Shown piece after piece: positions 146 to 58,121 of a stretch of DNA of 64,000 bases. Origin of the DNA: Chiridota heheva (taxonomy: Eukaryota; Echinodermata; Holothuroidea; Apodida; Chiridotidae). Made by a program: the position numbers and the translations under genes. The DNA lies in NCBI GenBank assembly GCA_020152595.1, contig JAIGNY010000327.1, positions 2,135,001-2,199,000 of the forward strand. Direction: 5' to 3'. The notes under the pieces were generated by a model. That model searched no databases, was not told the origin of the DNA, and worked only from the letters and a program-made list of their open reading frames with translations. Positions within the stretch are counted from its first letter, which is position 1. Each line of letters begins with the position of its first letter.

Positions 146-1469
146 TCTTGCATTATTACATATTTTGTACATAAAAAAAAGTGATCACTCTTCTTGCCTT
201 AGTACTTTTCTTTTAATTAAAAAACCTTGCTATTTGATAGCCTTAAGGCTGTTACACACTGAAAGTGACGTGGCGAGCGATATTTTAGATAATCATACAG
301 GAAACAAATATTATGAGATGCTTTGACTTTTTGCTCACACGCGATAAAGTTAACACTTGAAGCTTTCTGATAATACTGTAAAATTTGCTAGAAATACTTT
401 TTTTTAAACTGTGGAGAAATTTGCTTTAGTGGGGTGCGATTTTCTGTTGCAACCCAATTTTTCTTTAATGGGCATAGAAATGCCCTTTCAATCAATTTTC
501 AGTTCTTTTCTGAATAGTCATGCGATGATGATCCGTATTCTTCTCTGAAAGGTTTTATTTAATTTTGTTTAAAAATTCGCTCACCGCGTTGCGTTCGGTA
601 AGTCACGGCCTTTACTCTCAGAAATGAACATTTTGCAGAATAAAAAGTTCTGCATTTTCTCAGAAGTGTAAGATATCATAGTATTGCAAGTAAAACAGTA
701 AGTATTTCCCTTACTGTGTTTTGACCTTGAACATCAACCATATCTCCTTAAAAAAGACAAATCCTTTGTTAAAAAATCTTAATATTTATATACCATGTGG
801 AACTGTGAGAGCTTGTATTTGAGAACAATATTTGTGTTTTGAGATGGTCTTTATTTATACCTGGTTCTTTAGAGTTTTATTTACATACCTCTATATATGA
901 CCAACAAGGGAGACATTCTTAAGACTGTATTGCTTTGTTATAGCACATTCTCACACACAAAGAGAGATACCATCTGCATAGCTTTCATTTCATCCCCAGA
1001 CTGCTTTGTGGTTTGAAAAAACCACAGAAAGAGAACCTATGTGATTAATTCTGTCTGATGGGAGATTACCCTAACCACAATGTGTGTTGTGTTATCAAAA
1101 GTGGGGTTTCCCAATATTACCTTGTTTGGTGGTTTGCTTATTGATTGGGATGGTCTTCCTATATTGTCCACCTAGTTTACAGTGGACATGAACTTGATCT
1201 CATTTTGCTAGGTATTCTGTGAGTGCATTCTAAACAAAGAACCCTCATGCATTTAAATAGTTTTTAGTGTGAAGGTTATTGTCATGCTGGAAGGTACCAT
1301 GAAAAAACATGCTTCTTTGTCTGTTGACAAGAATATACTTAGTGTTTAAGGCCATTCGTGCATGTAATCCTGCTAATTCTGCTGGTAACATGGTATAAAA
1401 CATTATTTAGAGCAGAAACCAAATTTATTTTGGCTTGAAATGACCAAGATTTTTGTCGGTCACCTAATT
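146..1469. other. Intronic sequence, nothing recognised
   Basis: AT-rich sequence without a coding signal. The only open frames are short and lack codon bias or protein-like composition. It lies upstream of the two CPEB exons and is taken as intron because no other gene is evident. Confidence 0.5.
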
Positions 1470-1960
1470 GTCCTTGCTTTTTAGTTCAGATGGGATGTGT
1501 GTGTATGTTTGTGATGGTCAGCATGTCATATGTGGTACACAGATAGCCCATGGTCTGTAGATGTGCCCTACTGTTTTTGAAGGTGATGTCATTGATATTA
1601 ATGAGTAAGGCGGAGCTTAATGTAAAAATCCTGAAACATTCATATTTTAACAACTGCGTGTCTGTTTTGTTTCATGTGTGGGATAATTATGATGTTAGTA
1701 CATATTCATGATGTAAAAACCTTTGAATTTCATTAATATGTGTAGTGGGTGGGGCTTAATATGATTTTGCGTAAAAGAGCTTGTAAACACGGTATCTCAA
1801 GAACTGTAAACTGGATTCATGTCATATTTGGTACACAAATAGCCCATGATGCATTATATTGTTTTTGGTGGTGATATCATGCTCACCAATAAGTGGGCAG
1901 GGCTTAAAGGAAATATTTTGAAAAAGTGATAAATGAGCAAGTGAATGTCTGTTTGTATCA
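1470..1960 (+). repeat. R1 dispersed repeat, first segment
   Basis: Matches the reverse complement of about 50680-51170 over nearly its full length. Shared words include GGTACACAGATAGCCCATG, GATAAATGAGCAAGTG and the GTGGGNGGGGCTTA box. R1 units carry, in order, a TGTGTACC box, an ATGTCAT box, a GTGGGCGGGGCTTA box and a GATAAATGAGC box. The copy is interrupted near 1950 by other sequence and resumes at about 3536 and 4755. Confidence 0.75.
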
Positions 1961-3535
1961 TCTTTAACATTGCACGGTACTGGGGAAAATGAGCAACGTT
2001 AGTAATGACGCAAATGGTACCAGTAATACCGAAGTACCAGTATTTTTGCAGGTGACTACCAAAAGTGGCAAATATGTAATTCAACTTTAAGTACCATGGA
2101 ATTGTACACCGAAAGAAATTCCCACATTGCAGCTTGTACACTACAGTAGCAATGATCGGCGAAGTCAATGAAACATTTGAAGACTCACCCTAAATGAGGT
2201 TAAAAACATAAGCAAATGGATGGATTACTGAAATTCCACATCCAAATGGCAAAGTATCTCCCAGATTTGAAATTCTAAGCCATCAAAGGGCCGAAATGAA
2301 AGTATAGAAGAGCTTCAAAATGGCATCCAGAGCACATTTTATTTTGCTGTAACATTGCACAATACTGGTCTATGGGCCAGTGTTGGTATATTAGTTGGTA
2401 TATTTGAATTCAAGTTGATTACAGTTTGGCTTTGATACTGTGGCTTAATTTTACTTTTTACCAAATTGATTTGGCTTTTTTCTGCTTGGAGCGATCTTGA
2501 CATTAGTTCTTTGTTCAAGTTTTGTTTGGAAAAAAATAGTTGCTGATTGTGAGGAGAATTTTCATTATGTGACTTTAAGATTATTATTTTTAAGGTAAAT
2601 GTGACATGATGGGGAAGGGGATAATTTTCTTTTTTTTAACCTGCCCTTTCGTTTCAAAAGGAAAGATTTACACTCAAAATGTTCAATGCTGTTGTGGATT
2701 TGCAACATTTATTTATTGACTGATGCGATTGTCAGACGAAAGTGAATGCAGCTTTCTTTTCAAAAAAATTTAAATATATTCTTATGAAATTTTCTTGTTA
2801 CGATAGTACTAATAATACAGGCAAATTTTATGACGGTTGGACTTTTAACCTTACTGTACTACATGTAGGCCTATATTGCATATTCGTGAAACTAATAGTG
2901 CACCACAACTAGGCCAGCTGTTACTGAAAGTTCAAGGAATAGCGGGAATATTTACAAACTTTGCAAGTTTTGCAACCATGTCTTCCATAAATATTATGTT
3001 CTTATGAAATTTTGAGGTGATGTACCATGTTCAAATAAATATTTATTTCTAAAAAAACAATATTTTTGCTGATTTTTTAAGTGATTTAAAGGTATCTTTT
3101 AAAACTTTTTCTTGCAAATACCGGTACTGACGGTACTCGGTGGTACTTCGGTACTTTTTATTTGGTAGTATTGACCGTACCGGCACCGTAAGTACCGGCA
3201 CCGTAAATACCGGCACCGTAAGTACCGGCACCGTAAGTACCGGCACCGTAAGTACCGGCACCGTAAGTACCGGCACCGTAAGTACCGGCACCGTAAGTAC
3301 CGGCACCGTAAGTACCGGCACCGTAAGTACCGGTACTTTTCTTAGTAACGGTATACCATGCAACGTTGGTCATATTGGGCATAATAATTGTGTTGGTTAT
3401 TGTGTACATAGCATAGCAAGGTTCAAAGTCCCAAAAGCATCTAGTGTTGAACATTATATCAACACAGCCACGGCCTTTGATAACCAGTTGTGAACTCACT
3501 GGTTACAGACCCACCGGGATGTTTATGTTATCAGC
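1961..3535. mobile_element. Insertion interrupting R1 (unclassified)
   Basis: The uninterrupted R1 copy at 50160-51170 has no counterpart for most of this 1.6-kb stretch, so it is an insertion or several nested ones. It begins near a CGGTACTGG word. It holds the 15-bp minisatellite at 3181-3330, whose units also contain GGTAC words. R1-like words (GTTGGTTATTGTGTACAT) reappear near 3390, so the boundaries are uncertain. No transposase coding was seen. Confidence 0.4.
3181..3330. repeat. 15-bp minisatellite, 10 units
   Basis: Ten near-perfect copies of CGGCACCGTAAGTAC. Only one unit differs visibly (AAATAC for AAGTAC). Because 15 is a multiple of 3 and no stop occurs in the unit, several frames stay open on both strands, giving spurious proteins of repeated five-residue blocks. 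The unit is GC-richer than its surroundings and has CpG in every copy. Confidence 0.93.
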
Positions 3536-3630
3536 AGATGTCATTAATATGCATGGTTGGATGTGGCCTAATTTGAAAGTGCTAAACGATGTAAACACCA
3601 TATTGTACCCCAAGAATTATACATCAGATT
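3536..3630 (+). repeat. R1 dispersed repeat, second segment
   Basis: Contains GATGTCATTAATATGCAT followed by a degraded GGCTTAATGTGAGAGTGC box and GTAAACACCATA. This matches the reverse complement of about 50540-50630 in the intact R1 copy. It is bounded on both sides by insertions, so it is a short island of R1 between mobile sequences. Confidence 0.6.
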
Positions 3631-3651
3631 GATGCTATATCAGGTACCAGT

Positions 3652-4754
3652 CTTGGAAAAATACAAAAAAAAAGTTTCTTGCCAGCCTCTTATACAGCTT
3701 GGTGAGTAAATTCGATGAAATCAGTATTTCCACTCGCCAAGTATTTTCAACTACTCACCAACACTTTCAGCTAAAATTTGACAATTTTTGCGAACTAGCA
3801 TACCTCTGTATTGCCTTTTTCCTGGGCCTGACTTCATGACCGCACTCAGGCAAAAAAACATAGCAAGACTATACATGTGCACAATAAAATAAAGTAGGTG
3901 GTTAAAAAAACAAATTAAATCAACATACACAAACTTACTTGGATTTTTAATTAATTTCAGGCCTTCAGGAAAAACGAGTAGACCCCTATGGAAAAAAAGG
4001 TTACTCTCTATGCCTGTCGCGGCTCCAGCCCGTTTATATACAGTGTGCATATCTGTACTGTATGTTGTTCATACTGGTCCGATATCAGTGGCAGCTCAGT
4101 AAATTTGTTTCTGGAACAGTTTGGAAAGTACAGTATTCTATGCACAATGAGAGCTCCGAAGCTCCACCCACTTAAAGAAATAAGATAGCGTTAGAGATAG
4201 CGAGTCTAAAACTGTCCATTTTGTCAAGCAAAGACATTACTTGGAAGGATATAGCGCTCCCACCCATATTGACTCTAACGCATTTCTTGCAAGCTACGTG
4301 AGCCAATCAGATTTATCTGTGAAGCTGGGTCACGTGGTAACTTGCTGAAAACAATGAGATAATACACAATTTCCACAGGTATGTCCGTTGCCTTCATACC
4401 ATACACGTCCGTTGCCTTCATACCATACATGTCCTTTGCCTTCATACCATACCATTCACTGGGTGTTTTGGGCAATGAAGTTGACAGATATCGGCCAATT
4501 ATTGATTTATGTTTTGGATTTTAATGGAAATATCACTTGTGTTTTTGTGTGTGTGAAGGTATTTTTAGTAGAGAAAAATTCGAGAAGATATTGTAAGTAT
4601 GTTACTCGAAATAAAACAATTTATCAAAGCAAGATTTTACTCGCCATGGCTTTATTACTGTAAGTGCGGCGAGTAACACAGTATATTAAGATATTTTTAC
4701 TCTCCACAATTTGTTTTACTCGCCCATTGTGAGTAGGTGCGTGATTTTTCCAAG
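3652..4754. mobile_element. 1.1-kb element with CTTGGAAAAAT inverted ends
   Basis: The left end CTTGGAAAAAT (3652-3662) is the exact reverse complement of ATTTTTCCAAG (4744-4754). The intact R1 copy near 50510-50540 lacks this sequence, which supports an insertion. Repeated ACTCGCC and ACTCACC words lie inside near both ends. No clear target duplication was found. No transposase is present, so it would be non-autonomous. Confidence 0.5.
4289..4345. promoter_or_regulatory. Imperfect hairpin with CCAAT and E-box
   Basis: GCAAGCTACGTGA (4289-4301) and TCACGTGGTAACTTGC (4330-4345) form an imperfect inverted repeat. Inside are CCAATCAG (4303-4310) and a CACGTG E-box. It lies within the 1.1-kb inserted element, so it may be a remnant of that element's own promoter or of an older inverted-repeat element. 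A regulatory role is only suggested by motif content. Confidence 0.25.
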
Positions 4755-14494: not shown

Positions 14495-15310
14495 GAGCAT
14501 ATGGGAGGATGTCATGTAAGACATGGGGTGGGATGTCATGTGGGACATGGTGCGGGATGCCATGTGGCATGAGGTGGGATGCCACGAGTAACACAGTGTG
14601 ACATAGGTTGGGATGCCATGTGTGACATAGGGTAGGAGGCTATGTGGGACACAGGGCAAGAGGCCATGGGGACATGGAATGTTATGCCATGTGGGACATA
14701 AAATAGGATGTCATTGGGACATTGGGAGGGATACCATGTGGAACATAAGGTGGGATTCAATGTGGGACATAAGGTGGGATGCCATGTTATCGGGACAAAA
14801 TACCAAACAGCAAAAGTGCAAATCCCACACATAAGAATTGCTAATGCTTACATAACCCCATCTACGGAAGTCCGCAACCTTGGAATTACTCTAGATTTAT
14901 CCCTTTCTATGAGCAATCACATTACCTCTATTTGCAAAGCTGCCTACATTTCCATTCGGAATATAAGTCGCATTCGCAGTAGTTTAAACCAAAAGACTGC
15001 TGAAATATATGGTGGAATGCCATGTGGGAGATATGGTGGAATGCCATGTGGGACATGGGATGGGATGCCATGTTGGACATGGGGTGGGATGTCATTTGGT
15101 ACATGGGATGGGATATGTGGGTCATAGGGTGGGATGCTATGTGAATCATAGGATGGGATGTCATGTGGGACATATGGTGGAATGCCAAGTTGGACAAGGA
15201 TTGGATGTCTATGTGGGATATGGGATGGGAAGCCATGTGGGTGATATGAATGCCATGTGGGACAAGGGATGGGGTGGGATGCCATGTGGGACATAAGATG
15301 CCATGTGGGA
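14495..15310. repeat. GGGATGCCATGT minisatellite (copy A)
   Basis: Degenerate units of 23-25 bp built on GGGATGCCATGTGGGACAT, more diverged than in copy B, interrupted by a LINE fragment at 14787-15007. Open frames on both strands through the array are by-products of the repeat and are not annotated as genes. Confidence 0.9.
14787..15007 (+). pseudogene. LINE reverse-transcriptase fragment inside minisatellite
   Basis: About 73 codons in one open frame give the C-terminal part of a non-LTR retrotransposon reverse transcriptase. It runs from VIGTKYQ through EVRNLGITLDLSLSMSNHI to SIRNISRIRSSLNQKTAEI. The EVRNLG-hydrophobic-D-MSNHI pattern is typical of CR1/L2-like elements. Both ends join minisatellite units directly. 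It lacks a 3' tail, so it is not an ordinary 5'-truncated LINE insertion. Confidence 0.8.
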
Positions 15311-15730
15311 CTTGGTATCAGATGCCATTTTTATAATTAGCCGGGTCATATGATATGGGTGTCAATTTGCATGGGCATGCAAACCATGACGGTATCTACC
15401 GTTCTAGTTTATTAGTAAAACCTGCTAGAAAAATAAAATGATAAAAGTTAATTATTTATATACATTGCCAAATAGAATCCCTACTTCAGTAACTTTTGGA
15501 AAATTGTTTTTAATCATACAGAATCAACCAATTAACATTCAAAGAAATACATAAACATTTGCAATGGAATTGTCTCTATGACATCATCAAACATGAATTC
15601 ACCATACTGTACAAAAACTTTAAAATGCAATTGGGAAATCTTTAAAAATCCATATCTCCTGAATGGAATATGACATCAACCTGATTTGTATTCCAAATTT
15701 TACAAAACCTATTGGAATATTATAAAAAAC

Positions 15731-16153
15731 CATGGGAATATTACAACAAAAAAACTCATGGGAATATTACAAAAAAAAAACCCATGGGAATATTACAAAA
15801 ACCCATGGGAATATTACAAAAAAAAACATGGGAATATTACAAAACACCATGGGAATATTACAAAGAAAAACCATGGTAATATTCCAAAAAAAAACATGGG
15901 AGTGTAACGAGAAAAAACAAACAAAAAAACAATGGGAATATTACCAAAAAACTAGGCAATATTACAAAAAACCATTGCAATATTCCAAAAACCATGACAA
16001 TATTACAAAAAAACATGGCAATATTATAAAAAAAAACATGGCAATATTACAAAAAAACCATGGCAATATTACAAAAAACCATGGCAATATTACAAAAAAA
16101 CCATTACAATATTACAAAAAACCATTGCAATATTACAAAAACCATGGCAATAT
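15731..16153. repeat. A-rich CATGGGAATATTAC minisatellite
   Basis: About 20 units of 17-24 bp, each a CATGGGAATATTAC-type core followed by a variable run of A. Units in the left half mostly read GGGAATATT; those after about 15950 read GGCAATATT or TGCAATATT, so the array has two subfamilies side by side. Length variation is mainly in the A run. The long open frames through it are artefacts. Confidence 0.92.
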
Positions 16154-16437
16154 TTCTTTAACTGAAATCATCTATATCTCCACATCTGTAAGAAGTAAAA
16201 CAAGTCCAGAAGTACTTCCAGCATAGTCAACTTGGATGATTGAATAAAGAACAAGTTAATATTAATCAAAAGCTAATTCAATCGGCCAGCAATAATCAGC
16301 AAGCTTGAAGGCCAGTGGCAGAGATGCAACCTGTGGGAAATCTATGTTAGGACAACCTTGTGACAATTCATTTAGGAATGATTGCATCCTTAAATTGTTC
16401 AACTTTGCTTTGGGCGATTGAAGTTTACGTGCTCTTT

Positions 16438-39540: not shown

Positions 39541-41740
39541 TTTTTGGTTCGCATGCGAAGCATAATGCGAACCTATGTAATGGTGATTTCGTCCATCCAG
39601 CCATCCACAGTTTTTCCTGAGTTTTTCTCAGAAATGTTTAAGTTTTTTGAGAATTCCTCAGAAAATGTAAGTTTCTTGAGATTTCCTCAGAAAAACTTAA
39701 AAGTTTTTTCAGATATTCTTATGGAAGGTTAGAATTTTCTTATAAAATGTTAGTTTTTCAGAGACACTTAAGACAAATTGAAGAATAGTTTCCTTAAGAA
39801 GTCTACAAAACATTTGATATTTCCTTAGAAGATAACTGTAAAATGATATGATTTTCCAATATTCTTTAGCGTCTCTCTCGTAGCACTGGAGATTTAAAAT
39901 CCTTAAAATTCTTCAGAATATTTGGGCACCAACAGTTGTTTTAGGCATGATTATTAAACTCCGCCTGTATTATTGTGGTCATCTGCATAAAGTTGCTACT
40001 GTATATGAACTGACCAGACTTTTTATTTAGTATGCTCAGTCAGGGAGTGTGATAGGATGTGACTGCATATGGACGTAGGGAGGGATACCATGTGGGATAT
40101 GGATGGGGGACATATGATATAAAATACACAATGTGGTATACACCAAGGTCTACATCAGGCATATTAATTTAACTCCACCTTTTTGCTTATTCAACAAGTG
40201 ATTTGCATATCATTATATGAACTGACACTTTCATACATAATATGCTCAATCAGGGACTGTGATAGCTAGGATGGGATTTCTTATGGAGCCTATGAGACAT
40301 CATGTTGGACATGGGGTGGGATGCCATGTTGGACATGGGGTGGGATGCCATGTGGGACATGGAGTGGGATGCCATGTGGGACATGGGGTGGGATGCCATG
40401 TGGGACATGGGGTGGGATGCCATGTGGGACATGGGGTGGGATGCCATGTGGGACATGGGGGGATGCCATGTGGTGGGATGCCATGTGGGACATGGGGTGG
40501 ATGCCATGTGGTGGGATGCCATGTGGGACATGGGGTGGGATGCCATGTGGTGGGATGCCATGTGGGACATGGGGTGGGATGCCATGTGGTGGGATGCCAT
40601 GTGGGACATGGGGTGGGATGCCATGTGGTGGGATGCCATGTGGGACATGGGGTGGGATGCCATGTGGTGGGATGCCATGTGGGACATGGGGTGGGATGCC
40701 ATGTGGGACATAAGGTGGGATGCCATGTGGGACATGGGGTGGGATGCCATGAGGTGGGATGCCATGTGGGACATGGGGTGGGATGCCATGTGAGACATGG
40801 GGTGGAATGCCATGTGGGACATGGGGTGGGATGCCATGTGAGACATGGGGTGGGATGCCATGTGGGACATGGGGTAGGAGGCTATGTGGGACATAGGGTA
40901 GGAGGCCATGAGGACATGGAATGTGATGCCAGGTAGGACATCAAAGTAGGATGTCATTGGGAGGGATACCATGTGAAACATATGGTAGGATCCAATGTAG
41001 GACATAAGGTGGGATGCCATGTGGGACATCAGTGGGAAGCCACTGTTGCGGGACATACAGTGAGATGCCATGGGGACATAGGGAGAGATGCCATGTGGAA
41101 CACATGGAGGGATGCCATGTGGGACATAGGGAGGGATGTCATGTGGTACATATGGTTGGATTAATGTGGGACATACACGTAGGATGGGATCCATAAGGTG
41201 TGATGCCATGTGGCTCATAGGGTGGGATGCCATGTGGCTCATAGGGTGGGATGCCATGTGGCTCATAAGGTGGGATGCCATGTTGCTCATAGGGTGGGAT
41301 GCCATGTGGCTCATAGGGTGGGATGCCATGTGGGACATATGGTGGAATGCCATGTGGGACAATGCATGAAATGGGATGTCATGTGGGACATGGTGGGAAG
41401 TCATTTGGCACATGGGATGGGATCCATGTGGGACATAAAGTGGGATGTCATGTGGGTCATAGGATAGGATGCCATGTAGGTCATATGGTGGAATACCATG
41501 TGGGACAAGGGATGAGATGTCATGGGAGTGAGATGCCATGTGGGAGATATGGTAGAATGCCATGTAGGACAAGGGATGGGATGGGATGTCATGTGGGACA
41601 TGGGGTGTGATGCTAGTTGGTCATGGGATGCCATGTGAAACTTAGTGTGAGATACCATTTTAATAATTGGCTGGGTCATATGATATGGGAGTCAGTTTGC
41701 ATGGGCATGCGAACCATGATGGTATTTACCGTTCTAGTTG
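39541..41740 (+). mobile_element. Minisatellite-bearing element, copy B
   Basis: Second and fuller copy of the element at 13823-15409. GGTTCGCATGC (39546-39556) near its start is the exact reverse complement of GCATGCGAACC (41705-41715) near its end, a short terminal inverted repeat. Unique 5' (about 39619-40290) and 3' (about 41640-41740) parts match copy A, while the minisatellite core is longer here (about 1.35 kb against 0.6 kb without the LINE piece). Non-coding. Confidence 0.8.
40296..41645. repeat. GGGATGCCATGT minisatellite with 39-bp dimers (copy B)
   Basis: The basic unit is 24 bp: GGGATGCCATGTGGGACATG plus GGGT. Between about 40458 and 40690 full units alternate with truncated 15-bp units (GGGATGCCATGTGGT), making a 39-bp higher-order unit repeated about six times. 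From 41200 to 41330 a variant with TGGCTCATAGGGT occurs five times. The 440-codon open frame on the minus strand is produced by the repeat. Confidence 0.95.
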
Positions 41741-45956: not shown

Positions 45957-47275
45957 AAGCATTCTTTTACTCTGTATGCAGACAACATGAATATTCACTA
46001 TACCAACAAAGACTTTGATTCCCTGATTGATTAGGCTAATTCTTAAATGCCTAAGATTCTTAATTGGTTCAATTATGATAACTTCATCTTAACGCCAAGA
46101 AGTCCGTTACTATGCTCTTTTATGCCCATCATAAAAAGATTCACATTGTTAACAAGGATATCGCTATTGCTAACCAATTCATTTCCTTCTCTACCACTGC
46201 TAAATTTCTTGGTGTAGTCACAGATAATAATTTGTCATGGGTGCCCCGTGTCGCTGCTGTTAGCAGCAAAGTCTCTAAAGCTGTCGGTATAATCAATAAA
46301 CTAAGTAAATTCCTACCAAGCCACATCCTGCTTACTCTATACAATGCTTTAGTTTTTCCCAACTTAAATTACTGCAACATTGTTTGGGGACATGCATATC
46401 CAACTCACATACAAAAGCTCCACATACTACAACTCTTAATGTCCACTCCCAACCATTGTTCTTTATGCATAAAACACTTACAATCTTTGACATTGATACT
46501 TAACTATCAAAAACTTATTTTTGTTTATTGTTCTCTCACTAGCATACTACCTAACATATTTTCAGATTTCTTCACGCTCTCTAATTCTTTACATAGGTAC
46601 TCTACTAGACATAACTTAAATCTTTGTTTACCTTAAAGCTAACTTCCTCACAGATATATGTTCAGCATGTTGGTGATAAAATTTAGAACTCACTTCCCTC
46701 AGATATAAAAAATTATGCTTCCTTGAACTCTTTAAGTCCCATTTAAAGAACTATCTCTTATCTGCTTATAACGACCAGTAGTACTCATTGTCTCCCGGTA
46801 AAATTCCTATTATCTGACCTAAGTATACAAGTTTATTCTAACCCATGCATTACACACTCGTATTGTGCATTTTCTTGAATCCTTAACTGTTTTGTTTTGG
46901 GAGGCAATAAGGGTAGGTTTAGGTGGTATTGAAGGAGAGGGGGTCAGGGAGGGTGGGGTCTAGGGAGGGTGGGGTCTAGGTAGGGTGGGACGAGGGAAGG
47001 TTGGGTGTATAGACATACTGAATTGATTATCTATTGTCTTGTTGTCTTTTATTGTAGCATAAGGGGGTTTTGCACCCATAAGCTTTAGGTAGTTTCTGCA
47101 AAATCTCCTCCGCCACCGTCTTTATATTTGTTAAATCATGTTACTCTCATTTAGTTTAATCAATCAGTATATAATTTACAAGATTTATCTAATTTTACTC
47201 AATGTATATGTATATATATTGAATTTGTAATTGTTTGGTTGGAATAAAGTATTTGAAATGAAAATAAAATGAAAA
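45957..47275 (+). pseudogene. Truncated CR1/Jockey-group LINE
   Basis: 5'-truncated non-LTR element. Translation begins within the reverse-transcriptase palm as SFTLYADNMNIHYTNKDFDS, where the catalytic YADD has become YADN, and is followed by two stops and a frameshift. From 46112 a 174-codon frame gives TAKFLGVVTDNNLSWVPRV, SKAVGIINKLSKFLPSHIL, NLNYCNIVWGHAYPTH and SLHRYSTRHNLNLCLP, the C-terminal region. A non-coding 3' part with a GGGAGGGTGGGGTCTA tandem (about 46935-46990) ends in GAAATGAAAATAAAATG, like CR1-type tails. The element is inactive. Confidence 0.88.
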
Positions 47276-48772
47276 ACATAGTATTTTAGATCTTCAGTCA
47301 AAATGTATATCATGATTCCACTATGGGTAAATCGTTTGTTACGTAAATAAAAATCAAGCTGTGTTTCTTGAAATCCACCCACTCATTCAATCCAGAGTAT
47401 TTAGTTGCAAATGTATAATACAAACTGGTAGCAATGGCAACAGATGGTTGGGAAATGTGCAATGGTGATGTAAAATTAGAAATAGATTTATTGCTGATAT
47501 ACCCAAAGTCTGCAGGCAATTAAATTCCCATTTCAGAAGGCGGAAATTTATTTCCCCTCCCCAAGGAAATGCCCTTGTAATGGGTCAACTTAGGTTTTTA
47601 CTCTTTTGGAGGGTCCAAAGCAAAAATATAGTTCGTAAGATTTTGTTGCAAAAATTAATAACTGTCCTGCATATGATTTCCAAGCCAGCCAATTTTGACT
47701 TTCATTGTCACAACATATCCCTTTCATATACTGAGGGGGCTGTTATTTCCCCCAAATAGCACATGCTTGATATACCTGGCCATGGCCATAATTCTCATTC
47801 AGAAAGTGTGTGGTGAGGGAGGGGGGGGGGGAGGCAAATAGTGTGGGGGCAAGAGGCAAAATTTCTTTGAAATTTACTGAATTTGAAACAGTTTATGGAA
47901 AGTGGGGGACGTGTCTCCCCAGGGAATTAAGGCTCTGCACCTCATGAGCATGTCATGAGCTGTGATTCTTCCTGGCAGTGAATTCAAGAATGTTGTTCCC
48001 CCACTTTGTGGAGGCATATTAAGGCCCTGCATTGCCACTACAAATTGTCAGACAGAGTGCTACTGATGACCTTTACACACACATTATCCTCATTTATAGG
48101 TTTTTCTCGAAGGAAACATCATTTTATTATATTTGTGGAAATGATTTGTCGTGTGAGGGAGGGGAGGGGGTGGGCGTTAAACATAGGTAATTACTATTGC
48201 CTCTCAGGATCACCTCCAATATTTACAAGATATTGAATGCAAAAGATTGAACAAATCATACTGCTAACAATAGTCTTATGTTATGAGTGCATTATGATGC
48301 ATTGAATTGTATGAAAAATAATGTTTCCGATTTACTTAAATGGCATTTGCAGAAAGATTATTTTGTCAACAGTCATATATGTATTAGGCTTGAAGAGATT
48401 TTCTTGGCTCTTCCAGATGTCATTTTGACATGCCGTCTTCCCCAGTAGTTTTGACTTTCTTCAAATTTTCTAATATCTCAAAAGAGGATCCGTTGCTTAA
48501 ACATTGTAGAGGATTACAAGAAGGCTATCATGGAAGATGAAGGACATTACTTAGGTCAAGCCTCGCATGTTTGACATTTTCTGAGGGGTACTCCCAACCC
48601 TAAGTTACGTTGGTAATAAGTTCACTGAATATCTTTCTATAGGTTGATGACTTGCGATTCTAATAAAAGACTTCCAGTAAGTAAATAATTTTTCATAACA
48701 TTTTTGAGTCACATACGAAACAAAGTTATATAAATTCATTTGAAATGAAGTCTGCAAATTGCTTAAAAAGGA
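47276..48772. other. Intergenic sequence, nothing recognised
   Basis: Contains a G tract near 47820-47832 and GA-rich stretches. No gene supported. Confidence 0.5.
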
Positions 48773-49256
48773 TAAGTTCAGGGGTAAAGTAAGTTTATCC
48801 TAAAAAATAGGACTTTAAAAAGACACAAAATGGTGAAGAAAGCATTCAAAAATCTGACTCCTTAAGAAATGTTTAAGTTCTGTATCACTTGTGGTGAAAT
48901 CAGACTAGTTGTGATATTACAGCTTCAGATTCCTCAAAGTCTCTGTGTATTCTATCATATTTTGAAGTCTTTACGTATTCTATCATATTTTAAAGTCTTT
49001 ATGTATTCTATCATATTTTATGTATTCTATCATATTTTGTCCTGCAATTTTGGGGCTTAGTTACAATTGGATATGTCAGGAAAGTAGCAAAACAGTAGAT
49101 TTACTACACCAGTCATTTCTACACAGATAAAACAAGGGCTTTAAACTTGAATATCTCCTTAATAGAATACGATCAAAGTAGTTTCTCCACCATTTTGTTT
49201 CTCTGAAGGTCCTCTTTCAAATATGAAGAGCTTGCTGGATCACTGAACTAATCCTT
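48773..49256. mobile_element. P-family TTAA MITE, copy 1
   Basis: The left arm starts TTAA (48773-48776), then AAAGGATAAGTTCAGGGG, ACAAAATGGTGAAGAAAGC and GTTTAAGTTCTGT. The right arm (about 49105-49256) is its inverted partner, with TACACAGATAAAACAAGGGC, GAATATCTCCTTAAT, CACCATTTTGTTTC and CACTGAACTAATCCTTT. Each arm is about 150 bp. A few TTCTATCATATTTT tandem units lie in the middle (48950-49040). The right end runs into the 43-bp minisatellite. Confidence 0.75.
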
Positions 49257-49957
49257 TTGATAGATTTGAAGAGCTTGCTGGATCACTGAAATAATCCTTT
49301 CAATAGATTTGAAGAGCTTGCTGGATCACTGAAATAATCCTTTTAATAGATTTAAAGAGCTTGCTGAATCACTGAACTATTCCTTTCAATAGAATTAAAG
49401 AGCTTGCTGGATCACTGATATAATCATTTCAATAGATTTAAAGAGCTTGCTGGATCACTGAAATAATCTTTTCAATAGATTTGAAGAGCTTGTTGGATCA
49501 CTGAAATAATCCTTTTAATAGATTTAAAAAGCTTGCTGGATCACTGAAATAATCCTTCTAATAGATTTAAAAAGCTTGCTGGATCACTGAAATAATCCTC
49601 TTAATAGATTTGAAGAGCTTGCTGGATCACTGAAATAATCCTTTCAATAGATTTAAAGAGCTTGCTGGATCACTGAAGTATCCCTTTCAATAGATTTAAA
49701 GAGCTTGCTGGATCACTGAACTAATCATTTCAATAGATTTAAAGAGCTTGCTGGATCACTGAAATAATCCTTTCGATAGATTTAAAGAGCTTACTGGATC
49801 ACTGAACTATTCCTTTCAATAGAATTAAAGAGCTTGCTGGATCACTGAAATAATCCTTTCAATAGATTTGAAGAGCTTGCTGGATCACTGAAATAATCCT
49901 TTCAATAGATTTAAAGAGCTTGCTGGATCCCTGAAATAATCCTTTCAATAGTTTTGA
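49222..49957. repeat. 43-bp minisatellite derived from a MITE end
   Basis: About 17 units of 43 bp: GAAGAGCTTGCTGGATCACT then GAAATAATCCTTTCAATAGA and TTT. The first unit still reads GAACTAATCCTTTTG like the MITE terminus. About 32 bp of each unit is the terminal sequence of P-family copy 1; the remaining 11 bp are presumably former flank. Confidence 0.93.
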
Positions 49958-50159
49958 TTGAGCTTGTTATTTAGTTTTCTTGCTTTGCAACTTAATTGAC
50001 AAACAAATTACCTAATGTGAATTGTCTCTACATTTCCTTAGAAATTTGACCCACTTATGGATCATTTTACCCTCACATTAAAATATTATTTGTCACGCTT
50101 GTTCATAAAACATTCAAATTCCTTTTAAAACTCCACATATTGATTGCCATCATGTTAAT

Positions 50160-51170
50160 GTGTGCAACCACACCAAAAGGTTTTGTGGTTCCGATGCTTT
50201 TTTTCTTCATAAACTGATTGATTTGCAAAACTTGCATTAACTGTCATGTCATTGCATATCATGAAATATTTGTTCCAGAATATCTATTCATAAGCCACAC
50301 CTAACATGCAGATCAATACAAATGTTGACAACATTAGCATTTGCATAATAAACAGCAACACTAACATAGCACGTTAGATACAAAAACATTTTATCATTTA
50401 AAAACTATTATCCTTTTCAAGAATTTGTCAGTGAGCCCTGCCTACTTATTAATATTCATGACATCACTACCACAACATTAGAACATATGTACACACCATG
50501 ACCCATCTGTGTACAACATATGGTATATATCTGATATACCATTCATGAGATACAGTATGGTGTTTACCTCCTTCAGCACTCTCACATTAAGCCATGCCTA
50601 TAATGCATATTAATGACATCTGTTGATAACATACGCATGTACACAACCAACAATATTATCATGCCTACCATACCGTAAAATGGACATACACTTGCTCATT
50701 TATCACGTAAACCCCGCCCACTTATTAATATGCATGACATCACCACCAAGAACATTGGGGCACATCTACAAAATCATGGGCTATCTGTGTACCAAATATG
50801 ACATGAATACAGTTTACTGTTTTTGAGATACCGTGTTTACAAGCTCTTTTCAGCAAAATAATTTCAAGTACCGCCCACTATCCATATTAATAAATTCAAC
50901 GTTTTTACATCATGAAGATGTACACACCAGCTAACATCATAATTATATCACAAAACAGACATGTGGTTGTTAAAGTATGAACATTTTAAGATTTTTACAT
51001 TAAGCCCGCCTATTCATTTTTCAACAAAAACAATAGGGCACATCTACGGACCATGGAATCTGTGTACCACATATGATATCCAATGTATCGTTCTTGAGGT
51101 ATCATATTTAGGAGCTGGCCATCACATACATACATGCATGTACTCACCCACACACACATATACACTCCAT
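50160..51170 (-). repeat. R1 dispersed repeat, intact copy
   Basis: The least interrupted R1 copy. It consists of three diverged tandem units about 276 bp long: the CTGTGTAC box recurs at 50507, 50785 and 51060. Each unit also carries a CCGCCCACTTATTAATATGC-type box and an ATGACATCACCACC-type box, degenerate in some units. It is the reference that exposes the insertions in the copy at 1470-5115. No open frame or transposase. Confidence 0.8.
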
Positions 51171-54654: not shown

Positions 54655-55555
54655 ATGCATAGAAATACATAACGGTAAAATAGGGTAAAGCCAAACGTAG
54701 GAAAAATACATACAAAACATTCTTAATTTTGGTGCAATAGAATCATCATGATATTATTTTCACTGGTGCAAATTGACTCTCACCAGGGAATTTTACAGTA
54801 AACTTTAAAAATTTATTTCAGTAGCCTCTGACTAGCAGATTTGAAAATTTTAGTTACATTCCAAAGCTCAAATTTAGAAAGAATTAAAGGATAGGTTCAG
54901 GGGTCAAGCAACAAAAGTGGACTTCAAAAGTAAGAAACTGTTGAAGAAAATATTCAAAATTCTTATTCCATTAAGAAGATATTCAAGTTTAAAGCTCTGT
55001 GTTATCTGTGTAGAAATGACTGGATTAAGTCTACTATGGAAGTTTGGAGCTGTCATCCTTACCTTCTTAACAATTGTTAATGCAATTTAAAGAAAATTTA
55101 TTTAAGTTTTTTACTATTTAAATCATTTTCCTTCAAACTTTCTTCAGTTGGTAAATTATAATTACCCTTACTAGATCTGTTTTACTACTTTCCTGACATT
55201 TCCAATGATTTTAAGCCACAAAATCAAAGCACAAAATATAATAGAATTAAATAAAGACTGAGAAATCTGAGGCTGTGATGTCACAACTATTCTGATTTCA
55301 GTCATTGCTACACAAATGATACCAAACTTAAAACTAAAATATCTAAATAAGTTCCTAAAATATTATTTTAAATATCATTTTCAAGGCCGCAACTTTAATT
55401 GAGCTATAAAATCGAAATAACAGAATTTGAAAGAAACCCCACATAATCAAAGGTTTTCAAAAAACTTATTAGCAAGTTTAAATTATGGTCACTTCATATG
55501 TCTCAATCTCCCAATCAGGTGGAGATCTCCGGATTGGGATAGTGGACCGGATTGG
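54655..55555 (+). repeat. Segmental repeat, copy 2 (with MITE inserted)
   Basis: Direct-orientation paralogue of 53150-53545, split by the P-family element at 54884-55371. The two halves (54655-54883 and 55372-55555) align to the two halves of copy 1. Near its end CCCAATC words flank GGTGGAGATCTCCGG, a small palindrome. Confidence 0.8.
54884..55371. mobile_element. P-family TTAA MITE, copy 2
   Basis: The left end is TTAA (54884-54887) then AGGATAGGTTCAGGGGTCAA, with the usual GTTGAAGAAAATATTCAAA and AAGCTCTGTGTTATCTGTGT blocks. The right arm has CAGTCATTGCTACACA and AAACTAAAATATCTAAATAA, then decays and lacks the terminal CACTGAACTAATCC block, before TTAA (55368-55371). The paralogous empty site at 53389 has a single TTAA. 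Confidence 0.75.
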
Positions 55556-57560: not shown

Positions 57561-58121
57561 TTAAAGGATTAGTTCAATTGGCAAGCAAGTTTGTCTTATA
57601 TGAAAGAGGACTTCAAAAGAAACAAAATGGTGAAAGAAGCATTCAAATATCTTATTCAGTTAAGGAGATATTCAAGTTTAAAGCTCTTGTCTAATCTTTG
57701 TAGAAATGACTGATGTAGTTAGTCTACTATGAAAGGTTGGCACCATTATCCTCACATTTTTAACAATTGTTAAGGTATTTTAAAGAAAATTCATTTAACT
57801 TTTTTGCTATTTCAATTAATTTCCCTCAAACTTTTTTCAGGTGGTAAATTTTAATTATGTTTTACTACTTTCCTGACATATCCCATGATTTTCAAGCCAC
57901 ACAATCGAAGGACAATATCTTATAATACATAAACACTTTGAGGAATCTGAGGCTATGACATCACAACTAGTCTGATTTCAGTCATTTCTAAATGATACCA
58001 AACTTTAAACTTGAATATCTCCTTAATGAAACAAGATTTTTGACTGCTTCCTGCACCATTTTGTTTCTTTTAAAGTCTTCTTTCATATATGACTTGCTTG
58101 ACCATTGAACTAATTCTTTAA
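57561..58121. mobile_element. P-family TTAA MITE, copy 3 (most complete)
   Basis: TTAA at 57561-57564 and 58118-58121 flank AGGATTAGTTCA and its inverted partner TGAACTAATTCT. Arms of about 150 bp share TATGAAAGAGGACTTCAAAA, ACAAAATGGTG, GGAGATATTCAAGTTTAAA and GTAGAAATGACTG, with the complement in the right arm. The core contains TTTCCTGACATATCC and AGTCTACTATGAAAGG, as in the other two copies. Non-coding. Confidence 0.85.

Follow-up and report, generated by a model that had tools for sequence, protein, structure and literature searches.

A minisatellite at the end of a MITE copy in Chiridota heheva, and other arrays carrying the same element end

The minisatellite and the MITE copies of the window

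The window (the whole stretch of DNA analysed, 64,000 nucleotides) contains three copies of a MITE family, one of which ends in a minisatellite. A preliminary description, made from the letters of the sequence, had reported a 43-bp unit recurring about 17 times directly after the element, and this is confirmed by TRF, which gives 17.0 copies at 49226-49955. The features considered are the following.

48763-49260, forward strand: MITE copy 1, which ends in array unit 1 (terminal-repeat alignment to copies 2 and 3, family consensus, motif scan).
48936-49038, forward strand: internal tandem expansion in copy 1, four copies of GTATTCTATCATATTTT (TRF, copy comparison).
49094-49257, forward strand: copy 1, right terminal repeat, within which the core of unit 1 lies (alignment to copy 2, ends of genome-search rows).
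49226-49955, forward strand: minisatellite, 43 bp x 17.0 (TRF, units and column counts).
49949-49957, forward strand: TAGTTTTGA, the tail of the last unit, interpreted as host DNA immediately past the target site (comparison of unit consensus and flank).
49960-49966, forward strand: GAGCTTG in the flank, a candidate seed repeat, 1 bp out of unit phase, with the same 7-mer at 49228 in the element.
54884-55344, reverse strand: MITE copy 3, one end eroded, without array.
57561-58121, reverse strand: MITE copy 2, full length, TTAA at both ends, without array.

Copy 1 has its left TTAA at 48763-48766, and its right target site now reads TTGA. It underwent two separate expansions, the array at its end and an internal one, in which the 28-bp unit is present four times, compared with one diverged copy in each of copies 2 and 3.

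The array units present 91% matches to each other's 43-bp pattern, and the mean pairwise difference among the 17 units is 8.7%. Each unit consists of about 35 bp of element end with its target site and some 8 further bp; the target site reads TTAA in only three of the 17 units, which counts against the scenario proposed below. The first unit had been said to keep the CTAATCC reading of the terminus, and later ones to read ATAATCC. Unit 1 does have the C, yet the later units are not uniform, given C is found in units 1, 4, 12 and 14, A in twelve units and G in one. Taking C at column 23 and T at column 33 as the old states, unit 1 is the sole unit with both, and it also has the highest score against the family ends, 68, while none of the other 16 units exceeds 60. 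Secondary structure of the unit was considered as a cause and rejected, since the unit folds as DNA no better than its shuffles (z = 0.91, 0.56 and 0.75).

The family terminus as the core of the unit

The window's own assembly (1.1 Gb, 3744 contigs) was searched, and a family consensus was derived from 24 copies, namely copy 2 and those 23 of 39 fetched regions that have both termini within 480-700 bp. Two of these 23, L019 and L023, are one place represented twice, as their flanks are identical. The consensus has 584 bp, starting with TTAA-AGGATTAGTTCA and ending with TGAACTAATCCT-TTAA (the right end is also printed as TGAACTAATCC-TTTAA, from the same 24 copies), while the flanks of the copies differ. 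The target site is TTAA, with single copies often off by a base, and in the consensus it is directly followed by RR, the left end reading TTAA-AGGATTAG and the right end its inverse. Judged from these sequences, both properties fit Kolobok as defined in PMC6004289, where the definition includes RR directly after TTAA. Two other assignments were rejected: the consensus reads AGGAT, whose fifth base is not R, instead of the AGGRR of the Xenopus T2 MITE, and the same AGGAT differs from the CC[C/T]T by which a piggyBac-type terminus is defined (PMC2872659). The exact end word CACTGAACTAATCCTTTAA occurs 8,827 times in the assembly. Outside it, a phage collection searched at 'near' sensitivity and viral contigs searched with two exact patterns yielded no match, and the two 19-mer matches in bacterial contigs could be extended no further than 24-33 bp.

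The right terminal repeat of copy 1 aligns with that of copy 2, inverted (57728-57563), over 166 bp with 80.1% identity (E = 3.7e-36), and unit 1 is contained within this alignment. When the unit consensus was scored against the four other family ends, the summed score of 60 was reached by none of 3000 dinucleotide shuffles, whose maximum was 45. The single ends are less decisive: their four scores were reached by 2, 0, 13 and 1 of 3000 shuffles, and among 1532 unrelated stretches of the window, 24 score 13 or more, the best scoring 18. With up to three mismatches, the motif TTAAAGGATTAGTTCA is found 20 times in the window, against 1.9 expected; these matches comprise 15 of the 17 units, the four other family ends and one stray. 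Hence, most units carry a recognisable transposon terminus. Of the first 40 rows of the genome search, 38 end at query positions 350-359, which correspond to window 49249-49258; the two exceptions are the self match and the array copy L004.

Placed on the consensus of 24 copies, the core of the 43-bp unit is the outermost end of the element, as had been proposed, since the consensus terminus lies there and the printed flanks differ beyond it, one duplicated place excepted. The unit therefore aligns to a TE consensus and the array adjoins a copy, which is what defines a TE-derived minisatellite. By itself the locus is ordinary, given tandem repeats derived from TEs, MITEs and terminal repeats are already published (PMC9659126, PMC6947457, PMC3389668, PMC4079207, PMC2872659).

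Arrays at other copies and the bases beyond the element end

Searching with only the array as query produced 25 matches in 19 candidates, and two of these matches are the window itself. The comparison covered sixteen arrays or tandem pairs that have the family end, among them copy 1 and L011, the latter from the first search; beyond copy 1, then, 15 carry the same end word. The periods of the sixteen range from 23 to 48 bp and their cores from 2 to 87, with differing spacers and flanks. Given as period in bp x copies, the other arrays include 42x39, 47x21, 40x39.5, 44x8, 46x10.9, 36x83, 23x39, 45x38, 35x29, 40x30 and more, 45x15, 35x25 and 48x3.9. Units are closer within their array than to any other array in 13 of the 16 (three fail), and the right flanks are unrelated except for one 28-bp match, which together suggest that most arrays are independent births. 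A single genome-wide satellite, which the preliminary description had named as an outcome that would count against it, does not appear to exist, as period and spacer differ among the other arrays compared, although a search by words may overlook some places. Two of these loci have peculiarities of their own. At L074 (G000:C2122:1852000-1860500, about 1380-4535), a 36-bp array of 87 cores has the unit AATCCTTTAAGGATTAACTTGA, which is near-palindromic around TTAA, as though the end were joined head-on to an inverted end. At L076 (G000:C3612:268300-275500), a MITE copy has a 45-bp end array and a nearby 59/115-bp interior array (consensus 394-455).

Three sequences were inspected by eye to classify the junctions: the unit tail, the element preceding the first unit, and the flank following the last. 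Host DNA is apparently included in the units of L072, L073, L077, L079 and L081, whose spacers look unlike the element; copy 1 was classed as probably host and L082 as partly so. In L011, L071, L075, L076, L078 and L080 the terminus appears joined to element-internal sequence, and L070, L074 and L085 are unassigned. In L072, L077, L079 and L081 the interior spacer and the flank that follows the last unit agree over a shared prefix of 14-18 bases and then diverge. The same agreement holds for L073 one base out of register, which is why its shared prefix is only 3. Because their arrays stop inside a unit, L071 and L074 share 18 and 19 bases although they were not read as host-spanning; the count of shared bases alone is thus unspecific and fails to separate the junction classes. 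As read by eye, the bases shared at the host-side junction range overall from 0 to 5 bp (TGA in copy 1; none in L081, L072 and L073; GC in L077; AAGTA in L079; 0-1 in L082). No other element piece of at least 60 bp was found at L077 and L078, and only short ones at L079, so these three are tied to an element copy by the end itself.

In copy 1, the unit consensus and the last unit agree over their first 14 bases with at most one mismatch, and beyond these the flank diverges; where the last unit ends in TAGTTTTGA, interior units mostly have TAGATTTG/A. This suggests that the copy 1 spacer is probably host DNA from beyond the insertion site, so that the unit would span the junction of element and host. 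As with the other spacers, the host origin was read by eye from the flanks. Alternatively, the unit may be all element, if, as in L011, the terminus TCCTTTTAA paired with the internal stretch 42-43 bp upstream of it, TCCTCTTTCAA, and the spacer drifted afterwards. The element-internal junctions listed above provide a precedent, and the recurrence of CTTTCAA at spacing 40 fits such a pairing. However, about three indels common to all 17 units would be required, as well as a chance 8/9 match between the host flank and the unit tail, for which the probability at a fixed place is about 3e-4. We therefore consider an all-element unit unlikely. The match of the spacer to element-internal sequence is weak, its score being equalled by 18% of random 25-mers, or by 9% of random 30-mers for a longer spacer.

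According to the Haber-Louis model, minisatellites are seeded by flanking direct repeats of 5-20 bp (PMC3389668, PMC6947457). In the collapsed allele of copy 1 there are two competing 7-bp candidates for the seed, CTTTCAA at spacing 40 and GAGCTTG at spacing 44. As a control for the pair of GAGCTTG at 49228 and 49960, 90 of 5000 random stretches contain such a direct repeat at spacing 42-44.

Birth of the arrays and the question of preferred ends

The results support the earlier interpretation that a MITE end seeded the array, with three corrections: the extra bases are most likely host flank, the later units are not uniformly ATAATCC, and the event is one of several. We propose that a non-autonomous, Kolobok-like MITE inserted into a TTAA site at 48763, and that later a short tandem duplication arose at its right end through replication slippage or end-joining repair. 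The 43-bp unit duplicated in this step would have comprised about 35 bp of element end, the TTAA target site and some 8 bp from the host. From two copies, unequal exchange, slippage and conversion may have led to the growth to 17 units and to their homogenisation, with the array edges preserving older states, in that unit 1 is similar to the family end and the last unit continues into the host flank. Other copies would have followed the same course, their units including either host DNA or, besides the terminus, element-internal DNA alone. What we infer here is how the duplication arose (slippage or repair), in which order the events followed and that the units were homogenised. The account as a whole, a neutral minisatellite birth for which no function is proposed, is given a probability of about three in four.

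The array could instead have been carried by a transposing MITE variant and inherited at insertion, as with Xstir on Xmix. A terminus joined to AGTCCTC with a period of 51-52, found at C2, C24, C146, C272 and C628, is what a mobile variant is expected to leave. The copy 1 unit, however, was found at no second place by the word-based search (which may miss places), the best other array is only 74% like the copy 1 array over its length and has a period of 47 bp, and the nearly complete lack of similarity among the right flanks of the sixteen arrays also argues against a mobile origin, which we consider quite improbable at copy 1.

Doubled ends were also found among the 39 regions first fetched. 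In L012, L024, L029, L031 and L045 a second, tandem end piece is present, the terminal TTAA being joined to an internal TTAA-like site; L020 looks composite and was left out of this list. Nested insertion of one copy in another finds no support as the source in three of them (L029, L031 and L045), since the fetched stretch of about 0.5 kb contains no element piece next to the opposite end. Counting separate neighbouring pieces as well, some consensus stretch is covered twice on one strand in 17 of 42 cases, counted over the 39 regions plus the window's three copies; copies 2 and 3 are not among the 17.

Whether the ends are preferred sites is where two counts disagree. The end word CACTGAACTAATC, with 16,030 single occurrences in the assembly, is doubled within 23-53 bp in 527 matches (reversed control 0), compared with 61 (control 6) and 122 (control 1) for two interior words; these are matches, not places, with one array counted many times, and are not normalised. 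As one junction is common to several places, part of the 527 may represent a mobile variant and not new births. On contigs C1-C728 the distinct places number 30 for the end word and 7 and 5 for the interior words, again not normalised (30 and 7 were merged by script from listed positions, 5 was counted by eye); scaled from these first 728 contigs to all 3744, the 30 places would correspond to more than 100. The interior word AGTAGACTTACTA is arrayed at about 47-bp spacing at G000:C1382:1243721-1246132, with 41 occurrences among the matches listed.

A TRF census of 39 copies, on the other hand, counted four arrays in the end zones (8.9 kb, 0.45 per kb), 31 in the host flank (60.7 kb, 0.51 per kb) and none in the element interior (13.1 kb). 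Hence, there is no excess at the ends over host flank (Fisher p = 1.0), while ends and interior differ with p = 0.026. The census leaves out L011 and copy 1, which were drawn by their arrays, and L023, a repeat of L019, and it includes copies 2 and 3. The four end arrays include the composite L020. L012 and L031 have doubled ends that TRF missed, and in L044 an internal 45-bp pair is not labelled interior because the alignment stops within the pair.

An end hotspot is thus possible. The ends may simply not be special: in a tandem-rich genome with thousands of copies, arrays would hit ends by chance, as favoured by the 16.4% of the window that lies in tandem arrays and by the census densities. 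Against this stand the doubled end words, both as matches and as places. We consider chance placement an even bet. More tentatively, the TTAA ends may be preferred birthplaces of minisatellites, where breaks or nicks, perhaps made by transposase, are mended by short-homology tandem duplication, independently at many copies and often with host DNA in the unit.

Several known systems are comparable. Xstir, on the T2-type MITE Xmix of Xenopus (Hikosaka and Kawahara 2004, cited in PMC6004289 and PMC9659126), likewise combines a TTAA-inserting MITE with a tandem array of its own piece, and a review table gives the TIR as source. According to PMC6004289, however, an internal segment was amplified there into a large repeat family, whereas the present arrays are locus-specific, placed at the edge, and in some cases seemingly include host DNA. 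Terminal-repeat sequence also seeded growing tandem arrays in TIR-220 of the foldback element Tetris in Drosophila virilis, although that unit has about 220 bp and forms one family over many contigs, in contrast with the several different short units here (PMC4079207). In coral CMITE arrays, TTAA MITEs stand in tandem with similar sequence between them, and slippage was proposed; full-sized elements are repeated there, compared with 35 bp of end here (PMC2872659). Oyster Helentrons also carry tandem arrays (PMC7492417). At least 7,276 human tandem repeats are TE-derived, and some are flanked by short direct repeats, mostly of 7 bp; these minisatellites share the TE origin but are not births at one element end, and their initiation is mostly unexplained, known mechanisms accounting for the start of only about 6% (PMC3389668).

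In the literature covered, which takes in few subscription papers, we found no account of junction-spanning arrays born repeatedly on one MITE family. The newer part seems to be the many separate births on one short known sequence, with host bases seemingly trapped in some units. The start of a minisatellite can seldom be observed, as the pre-duplication sequence has disappeared. Given the consensus represents the element side and the post-array flank the host side, both breakpoints and their shared bases can be read here locus by locus, and a replicate set with readable birth junctions is unusual. Separate births on one known sequence make the extent of homology, the break positions and any preference for transposon ends countable.

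Elsewhere in the window, a 184-aa open frame at 46082-46633 looks by eye like what we take to be a reverse-transcriptase tail. Pfam gave no family for it, and none for 10 proteins taken from the window's 123 open stretches of at least 70 aa. The region at 50440-50500 resembles, by eye, the 135-bp unit of an array near another MITE copy (L025, 1249-2101). A near-identical 21-bp unit, AAAAACCATGGGAATATTACA, forms arrays at window 15697-16154 and at L029, 532-771. Arrays of a unit of about 20-25 bp around GGGATGCCATGTGGGACAT are found at window 14507-15300 and 40301-41627 and in L016 and L026, and constitute a dispersed minisatellite family.
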